From Cristatella mucedo (taxonomy: Eukaryota; Bryozoa; Phylactolaemata; Cristatellidae): 64,000 bases of DNA. The first letter of the stretch is position 1. The number at the start of each line of letters is the position of its first letter. Shown here piece by piece: positions 1,130-49,838 of the stretch. The stretch spans positions 3,095,001 through 3,159,000 of the forward strand of contig WPIO01000009.1 of assembly GCA_009760855.2 (NCBI GenBank), in the 5' to 3' direction. Position numbers and translations under genes: made by a program. Under the pieces are notes generated by a model that was given only the letters and a program-made list of their open reading frames with translations, searched no databases and was not told where the DNA came from.

Positions 1130-2665
1130 AATCCTTTTGACCCTATTCCCACTGTCCTGCTCCTACGTTGCATTTATCTGCTGCTGCCGTGCATAACTAA
1201 CATCATTGATATGTCATTAGCCTCAGGCCATGTCCCAGCACCTTTCAAAAAAGCTGTAGTCAGGCCACTTCTCAAGAAAGCGACACTAGAACAGGAGAAC
1301 TTGAGCAACTACCACTCAGTCTCCCTTCTATCATTCCTACCAAAGACACTGGAACGGGTCGTGGCGGACTAGCTGCACTCGTATATTGAAAGATCTTTCG
1401 GCAGCTTTTGATACCATCGATCACAAAGTTTTTCTAGAGCGCCTCTCATCTCGCCTGGGCATCACTGGCATTGCTCTGCAGTGGTTCAGGTCCTATCTCA
1501 GAGGGAGACTCCAGAGTATCGATGTGAATGGACAATGATCATCCGAGGTACCTCTGAAATATGGGGTACCTCAGGGCTCCGTGCAAAGTCCGGCTCTTTT
1601 CACGGTTTATACTCTCCCCCTAGCTGATGTGATTGCCAAGCACAATCTAGGCTTTCACTTTTACGTGGGTGACATTCAGTTGTACCTTTGCTTTGATCCC
1701 TCCCAGCCTTCGTGCACGTCGAATTCACTCAACTTACTTGCTGCATGTATTGATGGTATCTGCACATGGATGGCAGCAAATTTTCTAAAACTAAACGATG
1801 ATGAAACTAATTTACTAGTTATGGGCAAACCCAATGTGATTCAGAAATTGGAAAGGCTGACGCTCAAAATTGGCTCTGCCAGCATATCTCCTGTTGAATC
1901 TGCTCGAAATCTAGGTGTCACGTTCCAAAGTGACCTCTCGTTAGACGACCACATCAGCTCCTCAGTCAAATCTGCCTATTTTCAGCTACATGACATTGCT
2001 AAAATTCGGGCTTGTTTAGATAAGGATACCACGTCTAAGTTGGTCCATGCATTTGTAACCTCCTGTCTTGACTTCTGCAACTCACTGCTTGCTGGCCTAC
2101 AGGCATGTGCAATCAGGCGATTACAGCTGGTGCAAAACTCTGTAGCTAGGCTTGTCTGTCGTGAGCGTCGCAGTTGCCACATCACACCACTTCTCGCCGA
2201 CCTGCACGGGCTATCAGTCAAGCAACGGATCGACTTCAAGGTTTTGTCGCTCACTTTTAGGTCACTTCATTCTTTGGCTCCAGCCAATCCCTCAGATCTA
2301 CTCCCCCACCTGGCCAAGCATCGTACCACCCGTTTTTCGGAATCCAACAGTATACTAATGCCCCGTACAAACCTCCAATCCTTTGGAGACCGTGCATTTA
2401 GTTCGTATGCTCCCAAAGCCTGGAACTCCCACCCGACCTGCGATCCAGTGACCTGCGACCCGATGCTGCCACTAACCACATTTGCATGCTGACCCTGTGC
2501 ATGTCACCCTTAACCATGTTATTCATTTTATTTGTTTATCAAGCATGATTTTACTCACCATTCAATTGCATTTCCCTTTGCAGCAAATGTAAAGCGCCTA
2601 GAGAGAGATTAAGTTCTCTGAGGGTGCTTTATCAAGTGCATTATTATTATTATTATTATTATCTC
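1130..2665 (+). mobile_element. LINE-A, L2/CR1-like retrotransposon, 5'-truncated and inactive
   Basis: This is the best copy of the window's main LINE. Segments in order: linker (LLRCIYLLLPCITNIIDMSL), PFKKAVVRPLLKK, then a deletion, [27 protein letters not shown], the RT active-site region reading FYVGD instead of FYADD, RNLGVTFQSDLSLDDHISS, and the C-terminal ...SRLQLVQNSVARL-like block, RIDFKVLSL, GDRAFSSYAPKAWN. A 3' UTR follows, then a hairpin tail (GTAAAGCGCC ... GTGCTTTATC) and (ATT)n. The longest open frame is 1581-2492. Stops, the 5' deletion and the lost catalytic Asp make it dead. Confidence 0.88.
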
Positions 2666-4150: not shown

Positions 4151-4635
4151 CAAGATCTAAATAATTGGGTAAGCTGCAATTCGAGTAGCGGGCTTCTTTT
4201 AGAGCAGTTGCCTTGCTCACTGCGATGTAACGCCAAATTGCTTAAGAATATCAACACAAATTGAATAGCTAAATCTGTGAAGCCTTATTCTTTATTGTAT
4301 AGAAAGCTATTAATAATTTCCACGAGCCGGCCGGTTCCGACGAGCCGCTGGAGCCCCAAAGAGGGCTGCAGAGGATGAACGATATCTTGCCTATTACATA
4401 TACCTCTTTCGGTTCGACGTAGGAGCCGTGCTTATTGTTTCAACAATCGTACGGAATTTTTAGTAATCTACACGCGATAGCACATAAAGATGGCTTACAG
4501 CTTTGCAATGTCAGATGGTTGTGGAATAGCAGTTGCTAATTGCCTAGATAATGTGGCTATACGAGGTTGGAAATCTGCTCTCCTTGCGCACAGTAAATCG
4601 CGATTATCACCGTCCTGATACTTGCAAAAAAATAT

Positions 4636-4709
4636 CGTCCCTGGGTGGGCTCGAACCACCAACCTTACGGTTAACAGCCGTACGCGCTAACCAGTTGCGC
4701 CACAGAGAC
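4636..4709 (-). tRNA. tRNA-Asn (anticodon GUU)
   Basis: The reverse strand reads GTCTCTGTGGCGCAACTGGT... with acceptor stem GTCTCTG/CAGGGAC, anticodon arm around CTGTTAACCG (anticodon GTT), T-loop GGTTCGAGCCC and discriminator G. It closely matches metazoan tRNA-Asn with no lesion seen. Length is 74 nt, with no intron and no encoded CCA. It differs from the degenerate tRNA-like SINE heads elsewhere in having a complete cloverleaf. Confidence 0.95.
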
Positions 4710-4791
4710 GCTCTGGTATTGACCGACTTACAAGACAGTACTACATTTCATTTGGATCGCTCTAGAGTGTGCAGCATTCTTTTATCTAAAC

Positions 4792-19846: not shown

Positions 19847-19962
19847 GGTACTAGGACCAAATGTCCTCGGACGAAATGTCCCGGACATAATGTCCCTGAC
19901 TAAATGTCCCAGGACAAAATGTCCCCATACAAAAACGTCCCGGACAAAATGTCCCCACATGT
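19847..19962. repeat. Left terminal inverted repeat of the MULE
   Basis: Seven ~16-bp units around (G)GACNAAATGTCC. Most units are themselves near-palindromes. Confidence 0.85.
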
Positions 19963-20453
19963 TACAATAAATTAATCATATTCATGCTATTTTAAATATA
20001 TAATAATTAATAGGCTTCGATATTTCACCAATAAAATGTAGCATGTAAAGTTTTAATATTTAATGAAGACTAAAGAGAGATTACTTGTGATTATCAGTCT
20101 CGACATATACATGTGCAGTTAATCAAAGGCCTCTTTAAATGAAGTCATCTTTAGTTAATCAAAGGCCTCTTTAAATGAAGCCATATGCCATAGTCTTATT
20201 AATCAAGCAAACTTAAATGATAAGATATCAAAGTTTACAATTATATTTACTAATGAATGGCTTCTGATTCACTGTAAACGTATAAATATGTGGAAGTTAC
20301 AGTGAAGGTTATTATACTAAAAACTGTTTGTTATAGTAGGTGATAGATGTGCAGTGTAATAAATAATTTTCAAGATTTTGAGGTGATTAGTATTTATATA
20401 ACTGTAAATGTAATTTGAATGTTTATTAAAAGACAAAAAAATAATTAAGAAAG

Positions 20454-21800
20454 ATGCTGAAATTCATAACGTCACAGAAGGGAACAAGGAAGCTTGTAGT
20501 CGGAGGATTCTTATTCACGAAGCATAGAAATGGTGCAGATGGAAAAGAAATTTGGCGTTTCGAGGACCGAAACTGTGGGGTGCGAATTCATACTCTGAAT
20601 AATGCAATTATTGAGGAAGTTGGAACGCATAGTCATGCAGTTACCCACGGAAGAGCGTCTGTTGAAGAAGCAAGAAGCGAAATGAAGAGGCAGGCTCGGG
20701 AAACAGAAGAACCCCGTAGACACATTGTACAACGGGCTCTGCTGGCTGTACCTGTTGACGACGCCCATCTTCTACCTGCTCGTGAGACCTTATCACGTGA
20801 TGTCCGAAGACAGCGTTTGAAGACCAGACGTATTACAGATGGAGGTGATATATGTCATACGACACAAGACGGTAAATTATTTTTAAGAATCGAAGATGAC
20901 GACATGCTCATCTTTGCTGCAGATGACGATCTACATTTTTTGCAACAGTGTCAGCATTGGTTCGCTGACGGAGCATTTCGTGTCACACCTGAAGGCTTTG
21001 ATCAGCTTTACACCTTACATGGATTCAACAACAACTCCATATTCCCATGTGCATATGCGCTACTGCTGGGTCGTTCTCAAGCAGTATATGGTAGGTTTCT
21101 CAATCACATAACGACGCTGTCGAACGTTGGACAACCTTTATCCATTGTTACGGACTTCGAGCTGGCTGCTATCAACGCCTTCAAAGACAAGTTCCCGAAT
21201 GCAAAAATGATGGGTTGTATGTTTCATTTCGGCAATGCATATGGAGACAAGTGCAACAGCATGGATTAGCAGCCACTTATAGTAATGATCCTGAATTTGC
21301 TACTAAGGTAAAGCGTCTAATGACTCTTGCATTTGTTCCTACTGCGGATGTCATTGCAGCTTTTGAGGAGCTTACAGATGATGATGATTATCGTAATATG
21401 GATGTCATTCTGGACTACTTTGAGGACAATTTTATCGGGTGACAGAGGCGAAACAGAAGAACTCCACCAAGGTTTGAACTTACGCTGTGGAACCAATACG
21501 ACCGCGTCCTTAATTAACTACCTCGTAGCAATAATGCAGTCGAAGTATGGCACAACAGCTTCAACAACTCAGTTGGAATTGCACATCCAACTGCGATTGC
21601 CTTATCAAAGAAAATCAAGATGGAACAACACAGCATGGCACTGTTTCGCAGACAACTGGAACTTGGACAACCACAGAGAAAAAAATGCCAGACATACAAG
21701 CAAGTAGATGAAGCCTTGTTCACCGTGGTTTCTGATTACTACAACCGTGTCAGAATGCAGTATCTTACTGACATTTCTATAATCCTTAGAATTGATGTTG
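20454..21800 (+). pseudogene. MULE transposase with FLYWCH domain, broken
   Basis: The ATG at 20454 opens 271 codons. Residues 15-61 form a FLYWCH-type zinc finger (W34, C41, H59, H61). A MULE transposase core follows with D172 (FADGAF) and D234 (VTDFE) as the first two catalytic acids, and GCMFHFG. Reading is broken by an apparent one-base loss near 21232 (the next frame continues QCIWRQVQQHGLAA), then by in-frame TGA at 21440 and TAA at 21515. Recognisable MULE sequence resumes after each (RTPPRFELTLWNQYDRV; LPRSNNAVEVWHNSF). The copy is inactive but fairly young: three lesions in about 1.3 kb. Confidence 0.85.
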
Positions 21801-22259: not shown

Positions 22260-22361
22260 ACATGTGGGGAAATTTTTGTGTGGGGACATTTTGTCCTGGG
22301 ACATTTTGTCAGGGACATTATGTCCGGGACATTTTGGGTCGAGACATTTTGTCCTGTCACG
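22260..22361. repeat. Right terminal inverted repeat of the MULE
   Basis: Six units matching the left repeat in inverted orientation and in the same order, including the distinctive GGACATAATGTCC and CCCCACATGT units. Confidence 0.85.
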
Positions 22362-25619: not shown

Positions 25620-26125
25620 GGAATTTTAAATGCCATTGATATATGCAACAAGGAGATGAGAAAACTCGACATGCTGGAGGGCTGGGTGGGATCAAAGCAA
25701 AGGTACACGTGAGTGTCATCTGCATAGAACTGAAAGCCTAGATGTGCCTGGCAATCTCATTGGCAAGAGGGAGGGTATAAATCGTGAAAAGAACAAGACC
25801 AAGCACCGATCCCTGAGGTACCCCTTATTTTAGAGGATCCTCGGATGATCTGCGTCCATTCACATCAATAATCTGGAGTCTCCCACTGAGATAAGACCTG
25901 AACCATTGCAGTGCAGTGCCAGCGCTTCCCAGGCGAGATGAGAAGCGCTCGAGAAGGACTTGGTGATCGATAGCATCAAAGGCTGCCGAAAGATCGAGAA
26001 AAACAAACAGAGATACTCTACCTAAATCTGCATTCCTAACAAATTCGTTATAAACCCGAAGCAATGCTGACTCTGTTGAGTGATTAGCTCTAAAACCAAA
26101 CTTGAACTTCTTACTTTGGCATCTG
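25620..26125 (-). mobile_element. LINE-A RT fragment
   Basis: The reverse strand reads [40 protein letters not shown] and GVPQGSVLG. It is cut off by a (GA)n array on one side and a candidate LTR on the other. Confidence 0.8.
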
Positions 26126-26136
26126 ATTATAAGCGT

Positions 26137-26431
26137 TGTCACGAGCTGGCTACGCCCAGCCGTCGTGGGTATTGAAGTAATGGCTGACGCTGTGCGTATG
26201 AAGTACTTTCTTGTACGTACTGCACATATGGAGAACAGCAAGTGACGTGCTGGGTCCGCTTGGCTTATCTACCCACCGAGTTCTTCCGCTCGAGACGGCG
26301 GACCCACTTGCTTGCAGCAGTTGCTTGCAGGCCCGCATGCTGGCCGTGCGGTCCGGTTCCGCGTCTCCGCAATAAACGGCATCTGCTTGAGCCGTCTTGA
26401 TCTGTGCGCGACTGCCCGCATAAAGATAACA
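26137..26431 (+). repeat. Candidate solo LTR
   Basis: 295 bp starting TGTCACGAG and ending AGATAACA (TGT...ACA). An AATAAA signal at 26371-26376 is followed by a GC-rich R/U5-like stretch. It abuts a LINE-A fragment. No matching target duplication was found, so this is tentative. Confidence 0.35.
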
Positions 26432-31032: not shown

Positions 31033-31162
31033 ATGCCTGATCGAGATGAAAAGAATGAAACAGAGGAAGAGGAGATGGACCAGGAGAGTGTCGGAGACAG
31101 TATAAAGAGTGATGAAGAAGAGTCGGAAGCGGAATGTAGCTCGGAATCTGAAGAGAGCTCAG
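31033..31162 (+). CDS. BRMS1L: BRMS1L exon 1 (acidic N-terminus)
   Basis: It starts at ATG 31033 (MPDRDEKNE...). The rest is almost entirely Glu, Asp and Ser, as in the family N-terminus. It ends in phase 1 at a strong donor, G|GTGAGT. Confidence 0.9.
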
Positions 31163-34100
31163 GTGAGTCTACGCCGGCAGTAGATCGCCGAGCATGCAGA
31201 GAATGTGCAAAACTATCGTATTTATTCCAGTGTCTACAGTGAAAGTGTGACTCTTAGAGCTCAGCTACCGTCAGGCGTGGCCGAAATTGGTTTTTTGTAG
31301 CTTAACCCCTCCTTGTCCACGTCCGTTTCTTGGGTAGCTATGCTTGCCCACTTAAACTCGAAATGTATCTTTCAAAAAGTCCTTGCAAGGGTGAAAGTAG
31401 GGATTTGCTGAGCGCTCTTTGCCGAAATTCGGCACTATTCGGCTCTTTCGAGTCTGAACTTTATTTGCCACTCGTACGAGACTTTCGGTTTTGTGGGCAA
31501 AGACACCAAGAGTGTCAGTCGGTTGATAAACCGGTTGCTCTAGACTAGATTTCTTATGTAGTTGCTGCCATTGTGAAGTGCATATGACTTCACTTTTTAT
31601 ATTTTTGAGTTAGATTGTTCGTGGTTTTTAGTCATATCCAACCTCCAAGTGGTAAAACTTCAAATACTAGCTGAGAGGTAGCACTATGAATACACGTGTT
31701 AGTCGGCAGCCATAAGGACGTCATAAATTACAGTCACAACCCGTGTTTGTAGTTGATGGCATTTTTGGCACCTAGCTGTGGCTATGGGCATGGCTGGGAG
31801 TTGCTCTGTAAACCGGCTGGCCTCGAACTAGTGCACGTGTATGTTTGCAGGCTTAGTCTTATGATGCGAGTTCGTCGTGATTCAGAGGGCAATGATGCAC
31901 AGGCTGCTGTAGAAAGCTAGGGGAATTTAGGAGTAAGCAAGCTTGATGATCACATGAAAACAGCACTGGTTTGCCCACTGGTCAGCATACAATAGCTGGA
32001 AGTATATTTCTATATCTGTGCTAAGCGTTTCTTGGCCATCCGAGGACAAATACACCATTCGGGCATCGCTCTATCAGGCTGCAGCTCAGATGTCAATTAG
32101 ATTTAATCCATGCAACACTATTCTCACTGTCATATGCCAGCTGATCTTCAGCATGCTGTCGCCTTTGCATGTCAGTACGTGCAAATGTACGTGTATGCAT
32201 AAGTGTCATGCTCAGGGAGTGAGTGAATGCAGGTTTGTTGCATATCTGTGCAGTCCCCTATACTCGTTCTTGTGTGCACCGGCACCTTAAATGCCTGTAG
32301 TGTATAACGACAATCTCTGCCCCACAGATATGGACGATGAGGAGTTTGCACTTAGACGTGAGGCGTGCACGCATAGCATAGTCGAGCTCGAGAAGGCCTT
32401 CGCCGATCTGCGGGAACAGTAAGTCGGTTAACCTGGCGTCCTGCGTTTCCTGCCGGTACCTCCGAAGTAGTGCCATTCCTATTACACACCCTCCACCCTC
32501 GGTGTGCATCGTCTTATGTCTGCCTCATGTAGGTACTGCGGTGAGCGAGGAGCACAAGCAGACTCCAAGCTTGAAGAGCTTCGGCGGGGCAATAGTGACT
32601 GCTCCGATCCCGAGTACACGCAGCCCCTGCAGGAACTGCACGACCAGATGAACACGCGGACCGAAGTGGCAGGTAGGCTACATTCCTGCTGCAGCTACTG
32701 TATTGAAATGTAATGCATCTTTGTCTGTAGCTCCACAAAGCCACAGAGGCGTTATGCAGGAGAGTTTAGTATAGCGCCTTCAAAGCCTCGGTGGCTTTTG
32801 GTATGCATTCAGTAGCCAACAGACTTTATCTCACTCAAAAAAGAGGAAGTGAGACACATAGCTGAGTCAGGAGAGCTGTTGGGGTAGTGAGTAACGTGAA
32901 AGTAGCAGCCCAGGAGAGCTGGAAAGAGTGTGCAATAGTCGGCAGCAGCAGAGTAGTTGTAAGAATCATGGAATTGAGTTCCATTGTCGAGGACCTGCAG
33001 AGCTAAAGCTTCTCTTACAGACGGTCTTTAAGCTTAGGAATTCAACAGCTAATTTATTGTCCAAATAGGACCTGATGGCACGAGGAGGCTGAAACTGGTG
33101 AAGTAGTTTGGCTAGGTATGAAGGAGCCGGGCCACGTGGTCGGACCTGTGGGATTTATAAATTAGCCTTGCAGCCATATTCATCAGCAGCAGTGGCATAG
33201 TGGCTTTTTTCGGTAGCCCAGCCAAAAGCAATTACAATAATCTAGCCGAGACAGAATCAAGGAGTTGATTAAATTTTTTGAAAGCCACCACGGAAGCCAG
33301 TTCCTGCCAGACAAGCTTTCAGTTTATGTGTTGCTGAAGCAGATTCCGACGGTTAGTTACAGCCGAGTATCGTCAGCATAAAAGTGATAGCCAATTCCGT
33401 GCGCCCAGATCACTTTTCACAGAAGTTGAGTAGCTACTGCAGCCGCTTTTGCTCAAACGTAGAAGGACGTTCTCGTTGCCTTTGGTTTGGCCTCTCTGGT
33501 GAGTGTTTTATAATAATAATTATTATTATTATTAATATTATGATAGGTCGTTGGTATAGCCCCTAAGAGAATTTGATCTCTGTCCAGATGCTCTACCACT
33601 TCCTTCGATAGATTCATAAGACAATTATTAGTGACTGCACGACAGCAGTCATGCAAAAGCAGGCTAATGCCATGCTTAGGCCAACTTGCTGAAGCAAGCA
33701 AGAAGGCACTCATGGCCATCGGTTGGTAAGACAACATCAGAACCTGCAATCTTGTCTGCTTGCCTCTCCAGGGTGATCTTTTTGTTACTTTGGCACTGCA
33801 AAGGTGTATGCTGTAGGGTGGTAGCCCCTTACCCCAGGTCGACCATTTATAAGCAGATTTGTGCCCAATCGTGTGAGTAGGCCATGCGATGGTGTATATA
33901 GTTAGCTCTAGGTAGTCGTGGGAATAGCTGCAGCTGTATGCAGTGGTATATGCTGCTAAAACTTGCTGCCCATATTTAGGCTCGTCTTTTTTAGCAGGGC
34001 AGTTTTGATTGTAAAGGAGACTCTTTTGTGACTTACCAATCCAACACAGCGATATGATGCTGAGAGAGACAGACAGACAGACAGGGACAGACAGAGAACT

Positions 34101-37100: not shown

Positions 37101-40100
37101 ATTTAGTGTTGGCTTTTTTATGAGTGGACTGGCCATACCTGTTTTAAGAGGGCATAGACTTTGCTAGTAACCAGAGCATGTTAACAATATTTGTGTATTG
37201 TGGGTGTAATCGTATGGGCCTGATATATATCCACTCCATACTACATTAGCTGGCCTCTAAGCAATCTGCCAGTTTCCCCTGTATCAGACGCAGCTGAAAA
37301 AAGTAATACATATTAGCTTGCTCATCGTTAACGATGAATTTTCAGATTTGTTACCCTTGATAATAATAGTAAAAAATTAAAATAAATATTAAGATCTTAA
37401 GGTCTGATGTGAAACTAATTTAGATAGTAGGTATGTTGGAGCAAGGCAGTAGAGGGACTTAAAGATGAATAGCAGGATCTTGGTCGGTGCGCTGCTTGAT
37501 AGGCAGCCAGTGCCCATTGGTATGAAGAGTTAAAATGGGACAGTTACGGCATTTGCGACAGTAGAACCAGTTGCCGAGTTTTTTGCCACCTGTAAAAGTG
37601 TGTTTGCATGGGCAATGACCTTATAATAATAATGATAATTCATTTGTATAGTGCCCTTCAGAGAACTGAGTCTCTTTCTAGGCAATTTGCTGATGCTGTA
37701 TAAAAGCATTACCAAATGATTGGTGGTAACGTCAGCAAGCAGCAGGCATAGTGTAAGCAGGTACATGCACACGAAGAACGAATCACAAAGAGTTCGATAA
37801 CTGCATTATTTGAGCACCCGTCACGTTGCATGTGCTAAGTACCACATTGGCTCTGTGGACCATCAGTTATGGTAAGTGTCAATGGATGGGCAAGAAATAT
37901 TCTGGGGAAAGAGTCTCGAACCAAGGATGCTAGCCACTATGCCATTGGCTGTCCCGGACCCGGTTTAGAAGTGCAGCTAGCTATTCTTTGTATATACTTC
38001 CGGACTGTGAGTTGATACTTCAAAGTTTCTTTCGAGCTTGTTTGTTGCTGGTTTTAAACTTTAGCCAAAGATCTCAAGCTTGGCTTTCTGAGCGTTGTGG
38101 GTACAGGGTAACAGGACGTTCAAACAGTCAACCGTTCCTCAAAGCAGGTGCCTGTCTTTACCTGTCAGTGATGTTGCTTTGCTGTGATACAGATTGCTTT
38201 TGTTGTCATGGTAAATGTCAATTAAAAGTGAGGAATTTTTGTGATATGACATTAACAGGAAAGAGTGCATGTGGTAATGAGTGTGGCTAATCGCTAGACG
38301 TGTCCCTTGAGTGTCTTTTGAGTATTGTGTTCATAGCGATTGTTAGCTTTTGCTTTGCTGCCTTTGCAGAAACTGGTCTTGGAATGTTTGCTTTGTCAGT
38401 CTGACTTTTGTCTGCCCATACTGAATCTTTTTATTCCTTACCCAGGTTTGTTAGTATCCTGTCGTTGAAGTTCGAATGCAAGGCAGGCATGGATCGAGCA
38501 CTTTGGAATGATCATTCTTCTTAAACTTGGTTTGCCACGATACTCGCCTGTGCACTACTGTGTTTCATCCTTATAGATTGGTTGCTCTGTGCCATTTACA
38601 TTAGCCGGTTTTGCTGACACACGTGGCTATTATCTTTTTTTGCAAGGCGTCTGGCGGAAGTTGCAGATTGAGCTCGTCAGAGTGCAATATGAGGCAGAAG
38701 GCTTAGCTGCACATCAGAATGTCGAGGTAAGCGCAGATGCAGCATAATGGTTGCTCGATAGCCTTAGAAGTCTGCCATGTAGTGTGCCATTCTTTCCTTC
38801 TACGAGATTCAGGTTATTGTCAGATTGTATTCTTGTGCGGTTGTAAGCCTGTGACAATCATACTACTGTAACATTGATACTGACAGTTCTTTATTCTATA
38901 CCAAGGCCGAATGAATGTATGTACTGCACCACCCCAGTCGCACTTGTTAAAGAATGAGGTTTGGGGCCAGAGACATGGCCAGAAGTTTTCGAGGTGGTTG
39001 AACCTGCCCTGGGTAAGTCAGTCGTAGAAATTCGTTTATGGGCTGAACCTTGGTCTTGTTAAACTACTAGCTGACAAGTTCGACGAGTTTAGTTTGCACC
39101 TCTGACCAAACAGCTGTGGTCCCTCAATCAGACGGCCATAGTCTTGCAGCAGACATTCAACTAGATAGGTCAACTAAGTGCAAGCTTAAGAAAGCATATC
39201 AGAGATCAGGACTGGCTGTCCATCGTCAGGCATACAAAGACTACTGTAGATCATACCAATCGATCCTGGTAAAGGCTAATTCCAGCTTCCATAAAAATCT
39301 TGTTGATTCACAGATGCACAATCCAAAAATGCTGGTATGTACTATCAACCATAGGCTTAACTATTCGTAGGTTAGCTTCTTATCTAGTGATCCTTGTGGT
39401 GATCTAGCTGATTGCTTCTCTATCTGCTTAGCCGGCAAAATAGACAAGATCAAAGAGTTCGTCCCTAAGGTAACAGCATCCCCTCTGGGTTTCGGTCTCT
39501 CAATAACAAGCCCGAAGGACCCCTCCCTCTGTTCTGCTCAGTACCTCAATGTCTACTTTCGGGGAGGCTACGAGTGACCTCATCCTGAAATTCATCTCCC
39601 AATCAAAGAAGACTGCTAGTTCTCTAGACCCTATTCTCACCGTCCTACTTCTACGATGCATAGATCTGCTGCTGCTATGCATAACTAACATAATAAATAT
39701 GTCCTTAGCCCCAGGCAGGTCGTGTCCCTGTACCTTTTAACAAGTTAAGAGCTAATCACTCCACACAATCAGCATTGCTTCGGGTGTATAACGAACGTTT
39801 CATGAATGCAGAAAAGGCCATCTGCATTGGGCATACATTGGCCATGCAGTATGGAATGTATGTGTCTTCAACCACAAAACCACAAGGATTACGTGGGTGT
39901 TGGACAAGAGAGTTTTCTATAGCATTCTCAAAGCCTAAGCAGTTTTCGGTACGTATATGTATCCAACAGACTTCATCTCACACAACAAAGAGAAAGTGAG
40001 AAGCATTGCTGAGTCAGGAAGGCAGTCGAAGAAGGGAATTTCAGGGAAGTAGCAGGACAGGACAGCTGTAATGCATGTGTCCCGTCGTAGGCAGCAGGGT

Positions 40101-43100
40101 AGAATATGTTGTGTAAGAATTATGGGAGTGAGCTCCAGTGTCTAAGATCTGCAAACTTGTCCACTTTATAGCTGCCAGCATGAGGTATATTCTGTGGACC
40201 GATGACAGTAAATTCGTGATCAACCTCAGTGGCAAATGAAGGACTTTTGTCTGTCGTCGTAGAAGCAGTGAGGAGTACCATCCAGACTGCTTGCAACTGT
40301 TCTCACATATGCTGATGAAGTGTGCTGGTCTGGTCTTATTCTTAGCTTCCGATACTAGATCTGTTCACTGCTCCAACAGGGTTATGAATAGAAATGTGCT
40401 CATATGCTTCATCCAAACTCGATATTTCTAAGTGTCGGAGCTTTTGTTGGTGTTGTGAAGGACTAGGTGTTGCAGTGGAAACTGACCGAAACTGCCAGGG
40501 CACAAATAAAGCAATTATTTGCAAATTCGTGTGTCCCCAGTCCTTGTTTGGCCTAGCCGTCTTATTATCTCAAGTCTATTAAGAATCCATTAGAGCATAC
40601 ACTTTGAACTGAGAACGGTGGCTCATCATCTCTTGTCCACCCTTTTGGTCTTCTTAAGTACCCGCGGGAATGCATAATTCCCGGTGTTTTGTGGAAGCCG
40701 ATGGAATCAGTGCCCTGGTTAATAGAAAAAGTTATAATATAAAAAAGGGGGTGTCAGTCAGTATTCTATTGATGCGATTAACCACATTTTCATTTGTAAC
40801 CTTTGCGCTGTTATTAGGAAATATGAAAACCCCTTGTGCATTTGTTCTCAATGCTGTTGTAGATGGTGGTCGCTCAGTGATGTAGGTATTCGTCAGCCTG
40901 CATATATATACCTCCACATTTGAATGTAGGGTCTGGTGGAATGGTTATAGCCATTCCTTTGAACAGATCGTACACGAGGAGTAGGTGCACTTTAGGAGAC
41001 CTCATTTTTCCGCAAGTATGATTACAGTTTTACTCTGACTACCTTCTGTTTTGCACACTGGTTGGCTGGATTAGGAAAACAGTATGTGCATTGCTGCCCG
41101 TAGCACACGATATCCATTGCATGGGGCAGGTGGAACTTGATTGACCAGCTGTTTAGTGCCAGCATGATATACTACACTCACGCACCAGTGAATATGAGCT
41201 CTTACTTACTATTCTGTACTATGTCTTTGCATGCATGAATACGTGGGTATACACAGACTTATGCATTTAGCCTCCTTGGCCTTGGGTGTGCATAGGTATT
41301 GCTTAGGCCATTAATTGCCCGAAGGTCAAAAGCTCATCTGGTGCTTGGGTAACAAATGGCATTTAGTGGCAATAGTGGTACTGCCTTGTTATTAAGATCA
41401 GCCACACAAGTTGTGTCCCTTCGTCTGTTGTAACTTGTAGCTTGCTTATTTATACACATCTTACTGCTGCTGCTTCCGTAGCATTTTGAACGTATGCCGT
41501 GACATCAGCTATCGTCTTCATCCAGCTTGAATGGTAGGATATGATAATATGAGTTGCTGACCTTTATTAGAAAGACAAGCTTATGCTGTTCGACACCGTG
41601 CGAACTGAGCTAGAAGAAAAGATCCGACGATTGGAGGAAGATCGCCATAACGTCGATTTTCACTCGGGTATGTGTCCTTGTTTGGCATTATCGCTGTGCT
41701 GGAACTTTCAGTGACTTTAGGAACTTTAGGTGACCTTCGACACCATTGATCACGTTGTTTAACTTGAACAATTGAGAATAACGATCGGTCTGGCTGACGA
41801 GGCACAGGCATGGTTTAAATCGTACTTGTCTGACCGTGTTCAATCCGTGTCGTGAGTGGGTCAGGTCTCACACACGAGACGGGTCACCTGTGGAGTCTCT
41901 CAAGGGTCTGTCCTCGGTCCCTTGCTGTTCTCCATTTATACTCAACCTCTGGGAATAGTGATAAGGCCCCATGGAATAGGATATCACTTTTATGCTGACG
42001 ATACTCAGCTGTATTTGTCATTCAAGCCGTCGGAATCTGCTGCAGCAACTGAAGACTTAACAGTTGCACTCACGTGCTATTTTGTCATTGTCGTAATCTT
42101 TTATTGGCTATTTAACAGATGACATGTTTGGTATTCATAGTTAAAAATATCTGTATAACCGACAATGCCATTGAAACCTGATTGATAGGGAGTCTTCACA
42201 TTTATATAAAAAAAAGCTAACTTTAAATAATAATGATATTACACTTGATAAAGTGCCCTTAGAGAACTCAATCTCTTTTTAGGCACTCTACATTTTCTGA
42301 TCTGCTGTATGCTGCCAAGATGCTGCGACCATCGGATTGCAATCACTGCAATTATCTCAGGGGTGTTGGCATCCAGATTTGTCATTCCTGGTTGCAGTTC
42401 TCTGTGGACCCAATGAGCCATATCTATAGAGCCGTTAGCCCTCTCCCCAGAAAGCCCGAGATGAGCTACGAGGCTGAGAGAGTGACTCCAGAGGCATGTC
42501 GGCAGTCCATGCAGTTTCGAGGTATCTCTTACGAATGGCTTACAACTGCTTTAAATAGGGCTATGTAGACTGCTTATTCAGGGGGCACTGTAAGGATCAC
42601 AGTAAGTACGAGATATTTTTAGGGTTGTTAAAGAACTTACTCTTAAAACCAGGGAACATATTATTGTCGTGCGGGATGCCATTAGTGTGCAGCAGGTTAA
42701 GCTGGATGCCATTGGTGTGCTAAGGTTCTCAGAATGGGGGTCTGCACAAAAACCTGTTTAGACTCAAAAGAGGCTTTCGGGTGGCATCTTTTTAAGACTA
42801 AGTGTGCAGCTACCTCAAAACGCCTTAGAAGCTAACTGAGAATTAAAACGAACAGTTAAATAAAAGTATGGGTTAATTTACAAGTTTTAGAGCTGCTAAT
42901 GACATCCGAGCAGATGTCAAAGTGAAAGGTTTGACCTTAATTTTGCATCTTACGGTCTATGTGTGGCCACCCCCTCCATTCCAAGAACCCGTGTGTATGA
43001 CCTTGGGCTCAGCCTGCACTTTCATGGAGGTGTTCCTTGTTAATCAATCATTCAGTTTGTAGGTGCACTTGATGAGTTCATGAATATAAATAAAAATAAA

Positions 43101-46100
43101 ACATTCATATATTGCCCCGTGAGACTTTTATTATGTGCTGAAAAGGAAGCATGTCAATAGGTTAGTGATAACGTGTACAATTTCAGCACAAATGTCATTA
43201 AATAATTAATTGCATTGCTGGCTTAGACCTACCCTGTTAGGACTCCTTGTTGGATAGTAGTCAGTGCTAATAAGAGTGTTTGCATTCTTGTTAGTTATGT
43301 TGTCAGATGTACTATATATTTTTGGAAGAATGGAATAAAGAGGCGAATAACCTCCATGAGAAATGCTTTATTTTATGCAATCACAGTCTCATAATAAAAA
43401 ACACGTTCTTGTACGCAGTTGCAGTTGTTTCTCTGCTATGTATAGTGGTAGGTAGTATCTGATGTGGGGAAAACCTTCATCCATGAGTACAGGAGCATGA
43501 GCTTCGCCGACCTCTTTCTTACCAAAATGCTCGTAAATACGATTATGTGTTGACATCACTTGGGCATAACAGGGGTTGGGTGGGCTATTTATACCATCTT
43601 TGCTTCCTGTCTTTTCTGTGATAGTGCTTGTTCATCGATGAGCTACTGGATATCGTTTATATGCCAGGCGTTGGAGATATGAATAATGTAACATGAACGT
43701 ATGCGGTATGGCTAGACCCTGCTGACTGTCTTGGCACTAAGAAACATCAGTGCGTGTTTCCTTTTATTCATTGTGATACGGTCCAGGCAGTCTGTTTTCT
43801 CGCGCTGGGTCCAACTGGAAGGTGAGCGTGTTAGACAGAGCAGAGCTAGCCGATCTCCATTCCAGCCAGGCAGCCTGATCCTGCCGAGTTTCTTCGGCTC
43901 TCCTATGCATCAGCTTTGACTGTTCGTACTCACTCTGCTGTTATTTATTTACAATAGCTTTACCGAAATCGCTCAAGCCCACATCGATTTCCTGTTGCAA
44001 CTGCTTTTTTTCCAAAGGCGATTGTGGAGTTTTCTATGCATTCGTAAGTTTAGCTGTCTCTGCAGAACATCGCGAACGACCGGCTCGGACTGCCTGTCAT
44101 GTGATGCTCGGCTCTGCCTAAATACCCAGCTGCAGCTCCTGCCTACCTCTTCTTTCTGCTCCCTAAACCTCCTCCTCCTCCTCCTCCTCCTCCTCCTCCT
44201 CCTCCTCCTCCTCCTCCTCCTCCTCCTCATCCTCATCCTCATCCTCATCCTCTTAATCCTCATCCTCTTAATCCTCATCCTCCTCCTCTTAATCCTCATC
44301 CTCCTCCTCGACACCATTGTCTTACTTCTACCTATCCACGTCACCGTCAGTGGCTAAATATTAAGTGCCTAGAAAGAGATTGAGTTCTCAGAGAGCGCTT
44401 TATCAAGTGCATTATTATTATTACCAGTTGGGCTGTGATAGAGGAAGTGGGCCCTGGTAAGCGCCCCTAACTGTGTTGATGCCATGCAATAGCATATGCA
44501 GTAGCTATGGGTCCTGCTAATATTGCATGGCATCTGGCATTTTGTTCACTGTCGATGTGTTATTGTCTTCAAATAGCCTTCATTGTGTATGCTCTTTTAC
44601 CAGATGCTTGGGAGTCTGAGCTGCTGTCGAACAAATCTAAGAAAAAGAAAGATTGCTCGAAGGACAAGCGCAAAAAGCCAACTGTTGTCACGGATATCCT
44701 TTTTTAATTTAATGGAGCTGTCTTTTGATTTTTGTTTGTTATGCCTAGCAGCTGGCTAGTTAGCTTCAATAGTATGTGCCATATTTCGATTTTTTTTACT
44801 GGTTTGTGCTTCTACTGGTACGTTGCCAAATTCAGACTTGGCAGTGATATTGTTGACTCATTTCCTTGACTGGCTGTGATCCACGACCTTATGTTGTATA
44901 CATGCTGGCTGACAAGGACATACTCGAAGACTGGTCAGCCGTGCAACGTGCATTGAAGCAAAACAAGCGGCTACAGCACCCTATGAAATGCAAGTACTGC
45001 TGCTGCTGTAGCCTTGCCGTGTGGCTTTTTTCTAGCTGTGCTTTGCTGCTTGATTTCGGTCGATTATCTTCAAGCTCGAGTGCCAAAAAGTCCGATGTAA
45101 CTGGCCAAAACTCATCGGACATTCCTGTGAGTGGCTTGCTCGGTGCATTGCAGATATTTTCTTATGGTGCACGGTTTGTATTGTGTGCTCCCCCCATTGA
45201 CGTCTACAGGAGTTTGTCAATGCAAATAGCAGACCTTCTAGGTTTGAGGCGCTACATCCCTTGGGGGGCTGGCGAAGCTCTGGATGGGGGTAGCTACTTG
45301 TAATGCAACTTATCTCCGTTTGTAACTTCACAAAGCCACGAAGACTATATGAGTATTAGGCAGGAGAGTTTTGTGTAGCACACTCAAAGGTTAGGCGGCT
45401 TGAGGTACACGTTGGCAGCCAACAGACTTCATCTCACGAAACAAGGATAAGTAAGAAGCATAGCTGAGTCAGGAGAGCAGTTACATTAGCAAGTAGCATG
45501 GAAGTAGCAGCTCAGGACAGCTAGAGAGTATGCCCCTTAGTCGGCAGCAGGAGAGTAGATGTCGTTGCTTAAGAATTGTGGAAGTGAGTTTCACAGTCGA
45601 GGACCTGGAGAGCAAAAGCTTTGGTTGCCAACTGTCTTTAAGCAGAGGAATGGGACAGCTAATTTATTGTCCATACACGACCTGGGGGCACTAGGAGGCT
45701 GAAACTGGTGCAGCAGCTCAGCTAGGTATGAAACTGCCAAGCTGTGGCAAGCCTTGTGGGTCAGCGTAAGAACTGTGCACTGTATCCGTTGATCAACCGA
45801 CAGCCATCTAAGCTCTTTCAGCAAAGGAAATGCACGGTCTAACCTTTGGGATGTGTAAACTACTTGCCAAGATTCTCTGCTGGCTCCCTCTTGCACTTGG
45901 GTATGTTGCCAGCCTGCCGAGCGAACCAGCGTGGCTTCCTGTAACAGCTGCTCGCATGCAGCACCAGCTGCCCACAGGCAGCAGCTTGACGTGCTTGCTA
46001 GCCACTCGAGGAAGGCTGGCAGGCCGGCTAATCTGCCGGCTTGATCTGTCGTGGTTTAAGGTGACGTGTTTTGGCCCCCTTCGCCAACGGCTAAACCTTG

Positions 46101-49100: not shown

Positions 49101-49838
49101 CGCCCTATCTATGCAGCTGATTGCAGTTTGCTATGAACATGCCTGTCAGTAGGATAAGTGCTGCTCCATCCATTTACAGCATCACACTTACAAAGCACTG
49201 GCGCAAAAGAGAGTTCTTCGGTCAGCATGCTGGCGGATCGCCAGCGCCGCCGGCAGCCAAACATTGCTCGCTATGAGGATGGTCGTCTTTACTATAAGGG
49301 CCAATATTACAACCGTGGCCAGAGAGTTCTTGTCAGCGACAAGGATGGTTCGCCTGTCGTGTGAGTGGTTAGTTCCTTCGCCGTTGTAGGATCACTCTGA
49401 GCTTGTTGCGATTTTTTCCAGTGCTTGTATTTCAAACCCATGCTTTTTCCCTGTGGCTGTTTCCAGAGCCCTCTATGTGAACATGCTTAACATTTTCGAA
49501 TTGCTGTAGCCCGGGCTTGTATAGCTGCCCTAAGTGAATCTATGCCCACTGCTGCTCTGGCTCATCTGCACAGACCACGGGGTAGCTAACGTTTGTGTGC
49601 ATGCCAGCAAATGCTTGCACGAAACCCACCATTTACCTGCTGCTGTTCCATTAGCCTGTGGACTTGGTAGAAATCGTGCAGGTACGTCATGTCATTAGGA
49701 CTTATCTGTTGCAGTGCAACAATCACAGCTATAAGCTCGGGGGAAATAATGGTAAAGAAGTCAGATGGGAACAAGTCCAAATTGTATATTGCACAGCTAG
49801 AGAAAGGCAAATACTCGATGGAGCCACATCCATCATGA
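31033..49838 (+). CDS. BRMS1L: BRMS1-like protein (Sds3 family), complete, nine exons
   Basis: This gene encodes a subunit of the nuclear Sin3/HDAC corepressor complex, family Sds3/BRMS1/BRMS1L. Exons: 31033-31162, 32328-32418, 32533-32672, 38647-38726, 41571-41667, 44604-44693, 44885 to about 44993, about 49196-49360, 49715-49838. All phases agree, giving about 341 residues (351 with the alternative exon 7/8 junction); the human paralogue has about 323. The order matches the family: acidic Glu/Ser-rich N-terminus, MDDEEF, coiled-coil segments ([28 protein letters not shown]), a Lys-rich basic stretch, [16 protein letters not shown], and a C-terminal [20 protein letters not shown] block. The ATG has G at -3. 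An ETS-type CCGGAAGT lies about 100 bp upstream. Introns carry many old LINE pieces. Identification is confident; only the exon 7/8 junction is uncertain. Confidence 0.93.
32328..32418 (+). CDS. BRMS1L: BRMS1L exon 2
   Basis: The acceptor is CCCCACAG. The split codon G|AT gives Asp and then [16 protein letters not shown], matching the family's MDDE block. It ends in phase 2 before GTAAGTC. Confidence 0.92.
32533..32672 (+). CDS. BRMS1L: BRMS1L exon 3
   Basis: It encodes [19 protein letters not shown] and then [20 protein letters not shown], aligning with the family's VDAKLQEV...APEYLEPL...ENMQIRTKVAG. The donor G|GTAGGC is in phase 1. The preceding intron is only 114 bp. Confidence 0.92.
32725..33330 (-). 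mobile_element. LINE-B 3' part in BRMS1L intron 3, antisense
   Basis: It shares CCAACAGACTT, ATCTCAC, GCTGAGTCAGGAGAGC and AGCTAATTTATTGTCCA words, in order, with 45315-45900 and 48215-48870. Confidence 0.7.
33510..33605 (-). mobile_element. LINE-A/SINE type 3' tail in BRMS1L intron 3
   Basis: The reverse strand ends with GAGATCAAATTCTCTTAGGGGC followed by (ATT)n. Confidence 0.55.
34555..34738 (+). mobile_element. tRNA-derived SINE (family 2)
   Basis: Head GTGAGCCGTGATGGCACACT, B-box region GATCGTGGTTTCTAATCCTG, then GCCACTGCAAGCAGTGGTGA and CTATACAAAAAGAAGCTGTT. It is near-identical to 53215-53385. It lies in BRMS1L intron 3. Confidence 0.75.
35550..35710 (-). mobile_element. LINE-A 3' end, antisense in BRMS1L intron 3
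   Basis: Tail hairpin at 35570-35605, then UTR words shared with 43130-43200 (AAAGGAAGCATGTC). Confidence 0.55.
35880..37030 (-). mobile_element. LINE-A relic, antisense in BRMS1L intron 3
   Basis: The reverse strand reads [20 protein letters not shown]-like, [20 protein letters not shown] and [20 protein letters not shown], in LINE-A order and heavily mutated. Confidence 0.75.
37620..37800 (-). mobile_element. LINE-A 3' end, antisense
   Basis: Tail hairpin near 37645-37690, then UTR words ACATGCACACGAAGAACGAA. Confidence 0.6.
37815..37970 (-). other. tRNA-like SINE remnant
   Basis: The reverse strand reads CAATGGCATAGTGGCTAGCA and TTGGTTCGAGACTC with shortened spacing. Low support. Confidence 0.3.
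38647..38726 (+). CDS. BRMS1L: BRMS1L exon 4
   Basis: The acceptor TTTTTTGCAAG restores Gly across the junction. The exon reads [20 protein letters not shown], parallel to the family segment with NKYECE. It ends in phase 0 at GAG|GTAAGC. The 6-kb intron before it holds LINE relics and a SINE. Confidence 0.9.
39100..39830 (+). mobile_element. LINE-A fragment: linker upstream of RT, internally deleted
   Basis: Frames read [40 protein letters not shown] and [12 protein letters not shown], a region between endonuclease and RT absent from the other copies. It then jumps to [14 protein letters not shown]. Confidence 0.7.
39900..40160 (-). mobile_element. LINE-B 3' part, antisense in BRMS1L intron 4
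   Basis: It shares CAACAGACTTCATCTCAC and TTGCTGAGTCAGGA with the other LINE-B copies. Confidence 0.6.
41571..41667 (+). CDS. BRMS1L: BRMS1L exon 5 ([13 protein letters not shown] block)
   Basis: It encodes [18 protein letters not shown] and [14 protein letters not shown], the most conserved block of the family. The donor G|GTATGT is in phase 1. Confidence 0.95.
41730..42115 (+). mobile_element. LINE-C RT fragment in BRMS1L intron 5
   Basis: [44 protein letters not shown] and [15 protein letters not shown]. It is clearly an L2/CR1-type RT but distinct from LINE-A. It starts 60 bp after exon 5. Confidence 0.8.
42225..42310 (-). mobile_element. LINE-A 3' tail, antisense
   Basis: AATAATAATG run, then CTTGATAAAGTGCCCTTAG and the second hairpin arm. 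Confidence 0.65.
44167..44310. repeat. (TCC)n and CATCCT/TTAATC array in BRMS1L intron 5
   Basis: About 20 CCT units, then a higher-order CTCATC and CTTAATCCTCAT pattern. Confidence 0.9.
44345..44430 (+). mobile_element. LINE-A 3' tail in BRMS1L intron 5
   Basis: AAGTGCCTAGAAAGAGATTG ... GCGCTTTATCAAGTGC then (ATT)n. It ends 170 bp before exon 6. Confidence 0.7.
44604..44693 (+). CDS. BRMS1L: BRMS1L exon 6 (basic segment, before a U12 intron)
   Basis: The acceptor TTTTACCAG gives DAWESELL, followed by a Lys-rich stretch ending KKPTVVT. The last base G belongs to the Gly codon of T-G-P-Y and is followed directly by ATATCCTTTTT, an AT-AC minor-spliceosome donor. No GT lies near this boundary before an in-frame stop. 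Confidence 0.92.
44694..44884 (+). other. U12-type AT-AC intron (BRMS1L intron 6)
   Basis: This 191-bp intron starts ATATCCTTTTT and ends ATCCAC. A perfect U12 branch-site match, TTCCTTGAC, lies at 44862-44870, with the branch A (44869) 15 bases before the intron end. Joining the two exons at these points gives ...VVT-G-PYVVYML, the conserved family sequence. No GT-AG solution exists, because no usable AG lies between the upstream in-frame TGA and the PYVV codons. Confidence 0.93.
44885..44993 (+). CDS. BRMS1L: BRMS1L exon 7 ([16 protein letters not shown])
   Basis: The exon follows an AC acceptor and begins with GA, completing Gly before [19 protein letters not shown], near-identical to the family motif. 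The 3' end is uncertain: a donor at 44994 (phase 2) pairs with an acceptor at 49195, or a donor at 45008 (phase 1) pairs with an acceptor at 49179. Confidence 0.85.
45315..45900 (-). mobile_element. LINE-B 3' part, antisense in BRMS1L intron 7
   Basis: The reverse strand reads [39 protein letters not shown] and [15 protein letters not shown]. Confidence 0.75.
46150..48210. other. BRMS1L intron 7 interior
   Basis: AT-rich intronic sequence with a (TA)n tract at 46437-46456. The frame at 47627-47962 has no coding support. Confidence 0.5.
48215..48870 (-). mobile_element. LINE-B 3' part with nested LINE-A tail, BRMS1L intron 7
   Basis: The reverse strand reads [20 protein letters not shown] and [19 protein letters not shown]. 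The tail at 48608-48695 is a LINE-A hairpin with (ATT)n, splitting LINE-B, which resumes with TTTTTCAGCAAAGGAGACAC. Confidence 0.75.
49196..49360 (+). CDS. BRMS1L: BRMS1L exon 8
   Basis: It encodes a Ser-rich and Arg-rich linker and then [19 protein letters not shown], parallel to the family's EEGRLYYDGEWYIRGQ. The strongest acceptor (CCATTTACAG, end 49179) would extend the exon by 16 bases. The donor GT|GTGAGT is in phase 2. Confidence 0.85.
49715..49838 (+). CDS. BRMS1L: BRMS1L exon 9 (C-terminus and stop)
   Basis: The acceptor CTGTTGCAG joins in phase to [20 protein letters not shown] and then [21 protein letters not shown] with a TGA stop. This aligns with the family's ...[20 protein letters not shown] and KLYISQLQKGKYS end. 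Confidence 0.92.

Follow-up and report, generated by a model that had tools for sequence, protein, structure and literature searches.

A BRMS1-family gene of Cristatella mucedo very probably contains an ordinary AT-AC U12-type intron

The 64-kb stretch of Cristatella mucedo DNA analysed here (the window) contains a short intron which we regard, with very high confidence, as a functional and ordinary AT-AC intron of the U12 type in an orthologue of BRMS1/BRMS1L, carried by an animal that retains the minor spliceosome. The intron and its splice elements are placed as follows.

44694..44884, plus strand: AT-AC U12-type intron, 191 nt, phase 1 (called from motifs, spacing and reading frame)
44694..44701, plus strand: U12-type 5' splice site ATATCCTT (motif; seven predicted pairs with the animal's own U11 5' end)
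44862..44870, plus strand: U12-type branch site TTCCTTGAC, branch A at 44869 (motif; ten predicted pairs with U12)
44881..44884, plus strand: 3' splice site CCAC (read from the sequence)

Read from position 44694 onward on the plus strand, the 5' end of the intron is ATATCCTTTTTT / ATATCCTTTTTTAA, and its 3' end is ...TTCCTTGACTGGCTGTGATCCAC, the last four bases being CCAC. The branch site of a U12-type AT-AC intron is expected to resemble TTCCTTRAC and to lie about 10-20 nt upstream of the 3' end; the placement of TTCCTTGAC, with 15 nt from branch A 44869 to the last intron base, 44884, agrees with this spacing. The coordinates, the CCAC end, the branch motif and the 15-base distance given in the original prediction are all present in the sequence, and so is the reading that it restored across the junction: joining G|GA in phase 1 gives KKPTVVT-G-PYVVYML, with no gap relative to the human BRMS1L sequence used as probe. 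Phase 1 also agrees with the bias of minor introns away from phase 0 described in one survey (PMC10639083), which is weak evidence, being a bias.

The two motifs are unlikely to have come together by chance. Strict motif scanning of the 64 kb in both orientations found six [AG]TATCCTT sites, four on the plus strand and two on the minus; TTCCTT[AG]A[CT] occurs twice, each time on the plus strand. Among these the intron at 44694-44884 is the only correctly ordered pair of 5' site and branch site no more than 3,000 nt apart. Across 30 simulated 64-kb strands drawn from a second-order Markov model there were no pairs within 400 nt. The splice position is also set by protein homology, which is evidence separate from the motif count. 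If the intron were retained, the exon-6 frame would run into a stop at 44705, and among the nearby AC ends 44884 is the one that gives back the conserved glycine. It is highly improbable that the interval instead holds a major-class (U2-type) GT-AG intron and that the AT-AC elements are there by chance. Exon 6 does offer GT dinucleotides (44684 and 44687), and nothing further speaks for such an intron, but upstream of 44857 the exon-7 frame is closed, and the first AG after that base, at 44915-44916, already lies within the conserved block; because that frame has no AG acceptor before 44916, a GT-AG reading cannot retain GPYVVYML, and the GT-AG alternatives were rejected on this ground. The absence of the motif composite from the simulated strands likewise argues against chance. 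The elements fit the U12-type AT-AC reading originally proposed, and no GT-AG choice keeps the conserved exon.

We give equally little credence to the idea that this is an AT-AC intron excised by the major spliceosome. Such introns are known in sodium-channel genes and carry G at +5 (PMC2831892), whereas the BRMS1-family intron has a U12 branch site close to perfect and C at both +5 and +6. The U12-type AT-AC introns of Trichinella spiralis (ATATCCTTTC...TTCCTTAAC...AC; PMC2846911) resemble it in both splice sites, in the branch site and in the short distance from there to the AC end. They differ in having TTCCTTAAC where the branch site here is TTCCTTGAC, a change that leaves one G-U pair in the duplex with U12.

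The host gene was assembled with a human BRMS1L sequence as the homology probe. It has nine exons, and the intron separates the sixth from the seventh.

31033..31162, plus strand: exon 1, from the ATG (probe match, weak alone, E 0.033)
32328..32418, plus strand: exon 2 (probe match)
32533..32672, plus strand: exon 3 (probe match)
38647..38726, plus strand: exon 4 (probe match, weak alone, E 0.17)
41571..41667, plus strand: exon 5 (probe match)
44604..44693, plus strand: exon 6, ending ..KKPTVVT + G (probe match, weak alone, E 0.13)
44885..44993, plus strand: exon 7, starting GA CCT, GPYVVYML (probe match, alone E 8e-6)
49226..49360, plus strand: exon 8 (probe match; its 5' end is one of three frame-keeping acceptors)
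49715..49835, plus strand: exon 9, the last, with a C-terminal SDS3-like domain (end approximate)

The exons are collinear with the probe on the plus strand, between about 31 kb and 49.8 kb; most of them are significant singly, and when joined they give a frame of 331 residues that is open throughout. Six of the seven other introns read directly as GT-AG; for the intron between exons 7 and 8 several ends keep the frame, and the 3' end of exon 7 was placed at the sole GT among the donors listed, the rest being GC. BRMS1/BRMS1L and SDS3 are subunits of the Sin3-HDAC complex, and a BRMS1-type product is a chromatin protein. The spliced protein matches the Pfam Sds3 family (PF08598) at E 7.1e-15 and 56.1 bits against a cut-off of 25.4, as well as the SDS3 chain of PDB 7sxi (2e-10), and it is 46% identical to the human BRMS1L probe (148 of 325 columns). 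It shares the Sds3 Pfam domain, the GPYIVYML block and the C-terminal SDS3-like domain with BRMS1/BRMS1L and SDS3. The one place listed by an Sds3-family search of the whole assembly, on contig C199, reads by eye as SUDS3, and we therefore take the gene in the window to be of the BRMS1 type; the window gene is itself unlisted in that search because its single exons match the family too weakly.

Several other elements were seen in the window. A CCT/CAT-rich tandem repeat array at 44168-44309 lies inside intron 5 of the gene, about 300 bases upstream of exon 6. A FLYWCH/MULE transposase frame (20445-21269, plus strand) has GGACAAAATGTCCC-type repeat arrays on either side, at 19854-19957 and 22274-22356; these arrays may mark the two ends of a single DNA transposon. 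There is a LINE-like reverse transcriptase frame at 1539-2492 (plus strand; 27.3 bits, slightly under the Pfam cut-off of 29.6), with further LINE-like fragments recognised by eye at 25825-26268 (minus) and 41856-42122 (plus), and a tRNA-Asn (GTT) gene at 4635-4710 (minus strand; Rfam tRNA, 65.8 bits).

The original prediction held that the intron implies a working U11/U12 system and proposed a genome search for the U11, U12, U4atac and U6atac snRNAs. In the animal's own assembly (572 Mb, 688 contigs) the first three were found at full length and above their Rfam cut-offs, each in at least one place: U11 at 102 bits against 39 (positions 1-134 of 134), U12 at 114.9 against 53 (1-151 of 151) and U4atac at 81.2 against 53 (1-132 of 132). 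The predicted duplex between the U11 5' end and the 5' splice site of the intron has an energy of -5.7 kcal/mol, and that between U12 and the flanked branch site, in which the branch A is bulged, -9.2 kcal/mol, both values standing without a shuffled control. CENATAC (CCDC84), the factor on which AT-AN introns depend and whose depletion in human cells affects them according to PMC8280824, is represented by three exon matches over the cut-off (E 1.0e-6, 1.3e-6 and 1.2e-5), colinear on one strand of contig C676. The same source reports a minor 5' splice site inside the CENATAC gene of animals; a strict motif search of 14 kb of the CENATAC stretch gave no U12-type competing site. A published rule for minor-spliceosome presence asks for at least two minor snRNAs plus at least three called minor introns (PMC10639083), and U11, U12 and U4atac supply the snRNA half of it in this assembly. 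The expectation of a working system is largely borne out by three full-length snRNAs and the CENATAC exons, but the searches described below turned up no intact copy of U6atac.

In the mechanism that we propose, U11 would pair with the 5' splice site ATATCCTT, and U12 would pair with TTCCTTGAC so that the branch A bulges out; the U4atac/U6atac.U5 tri-snRNP and CENATAC would take over after U11/U12, and splicing would join G|GA, restoring the glycine of T-G-PYVVYML. We infer from the DNA that the RNA is spliced at 44693/44885, probably by the U12 spliceosome.

An Rfam family search of the assembly for U6atac gave no match at E<=0.001. Relaxing the limit to E<=10 brought up nine matches, all under the cut-off of 33, the best two at 22.7 bits. 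This search scored 46 of 16,209 first-look candidates, and 14 control genomes likewise gave no match over the cut-off, leaving it with no positive control; for both reasons the absence of U6atac is not established. Pattern searches of the assembly, three of them modelled on the human U6atac core and a fourth on the 5' part of it, also found no intact gene. The core patterns gave 0, 18 and 12 hits against 0, 14 and 4 for backwards controls, and Rfam scans at gathering scores of 15 loci from the 18 places and 11 loci from the 12, in which the overlapping L014, L020, L021 and L031 were skipped, returned no matches. The 5'-part pattern gave one hit against none backwards, which was rejected as U6atac, being a VirB9-like bacterial gene.

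On contig C3 (1,507,939 bases) the three stretches examined (L003, L046, L047) look bacterial and gene-dense. They hold a type IV secretion gene of the VirB9/CagX family (1.9e-51), and frames resembling SecY and adenylate kinase were recognised by eye. In a single scan of genome contigs, one relative of this VirB9 was found, in Candidatus Mesenet longicola (28% identity), which suggests a diverged Rickettsiales symbiont sequenced along with the animal.

The only trace of U6atac found is a fragment present at C45:13886 and C534:7717 (L037/L048 and L038/L049), in which bases 1-27 are matched at 24 of 27 positions, 18 of them consecutive, with a TATA-like TATATATA box 32 bases upstream. Among the nine sub-threshold places only L037 and L038 align well to the human U6atac core, the others doing no better than unrelated loci. 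The two sites are treated as two copies of one locus because their main blocks are 98-99.5% alike, and a search of the assembly for a third copy of the promoter and fragment stretch found none. Past base 27 the fragment diverges from U6atac: the AGC triad is absent there and no TTTT occurs before +437. The predicted pairing of this tail with the animal's own U4atac equals the best 30 of 15,102 neighbouring windows, and is matched by 287 of 5,000 tail shuffles; its stem I pairing is equalled by 442 of 2,000. With tail pairing this weak against shuffles, we do not claim the fragment as a diverged functional gene. A search for the U6atac 3' half through 68 kb of C45 and 22 kb of C534 gave nothing convincing: its top alignments scored 38 with a long query and 24 with a short one, where a single shuffle reached 32 and 22, and are judged chance. 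On the other strand downstream of the fragment, a type-B DNA polymerase motif was recognised by eye at about 1 kb (L048:6878-7303) and an Endonuclease VII domain lies at about 2.6 kb (L048:8531-8917), a combination as in Polinton-type elements.

The U4atac of this animal retains CCAUCCUU and GGGG, which we take to be the stem II partners of U6atac. That the intron is a dead relic, no longer removed in a species that has lost U6atac, would fit the failure of the searches to find an intact gene and the departure of the fragment locus from U6atac after its 27-nt match, but it is extremely unlikely, given that the intron signals and the gene are intact and that U11, U12, CENATAC and U4atac with these partner sequences are kept, which is unexpected after loss. 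It is far likelier that the U6atac gene is unassembled, missed or diverged than that it is lost, and an intact copy presumably exists beyond what was found; minor snRNAs can escape detection, those of schistosomes having needed a special search (PMC2770079). There is a slender chance that U6atac has instead been rearranged, its promoter-side 27 nt left at the one duplicated locus and its catalytic 3' part moved, diverged past recognition or part of a split gene, in which case the minor spliceosome, maintained for introns of this sort, would run on an unusual catalytic RNA.

With most of the tested parts of the minor spliceosome also in the genome, the functional AT-AC intron favoured here looks like a textbook case of a known class, real but ordinary. 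It had been presented as belonging to a small minority of an already rare class. The assignment to the minor class holds, but roughly one minor intron in four is AT-AC (24% in PMC8280824 and about 26% in human in PMC10639083) and the family is one in which a minor intron had already been reported, human BRMS1L being named among minor-intron-containing genes in PMC3728624. The likeness to the human gene is drawn at the level of the gene family; among the papers that the literature searches listed, none beyond that one linked BRMS1/BRMS1L to minor splicing. PMC8280824 describes the genes that host minor introns, and the intron subtypes, as conserved. Beyond cataloguing, the one loose end of possible weight is that no intact U6atac was found. 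For the catalogue itself, the gain is one well-supported AT-AC minor intron from one more animal, along with the host gene and the greater part of the machinery tested, and the case shows that DNA alone can be enough to identify such a rare intron with good confidence.
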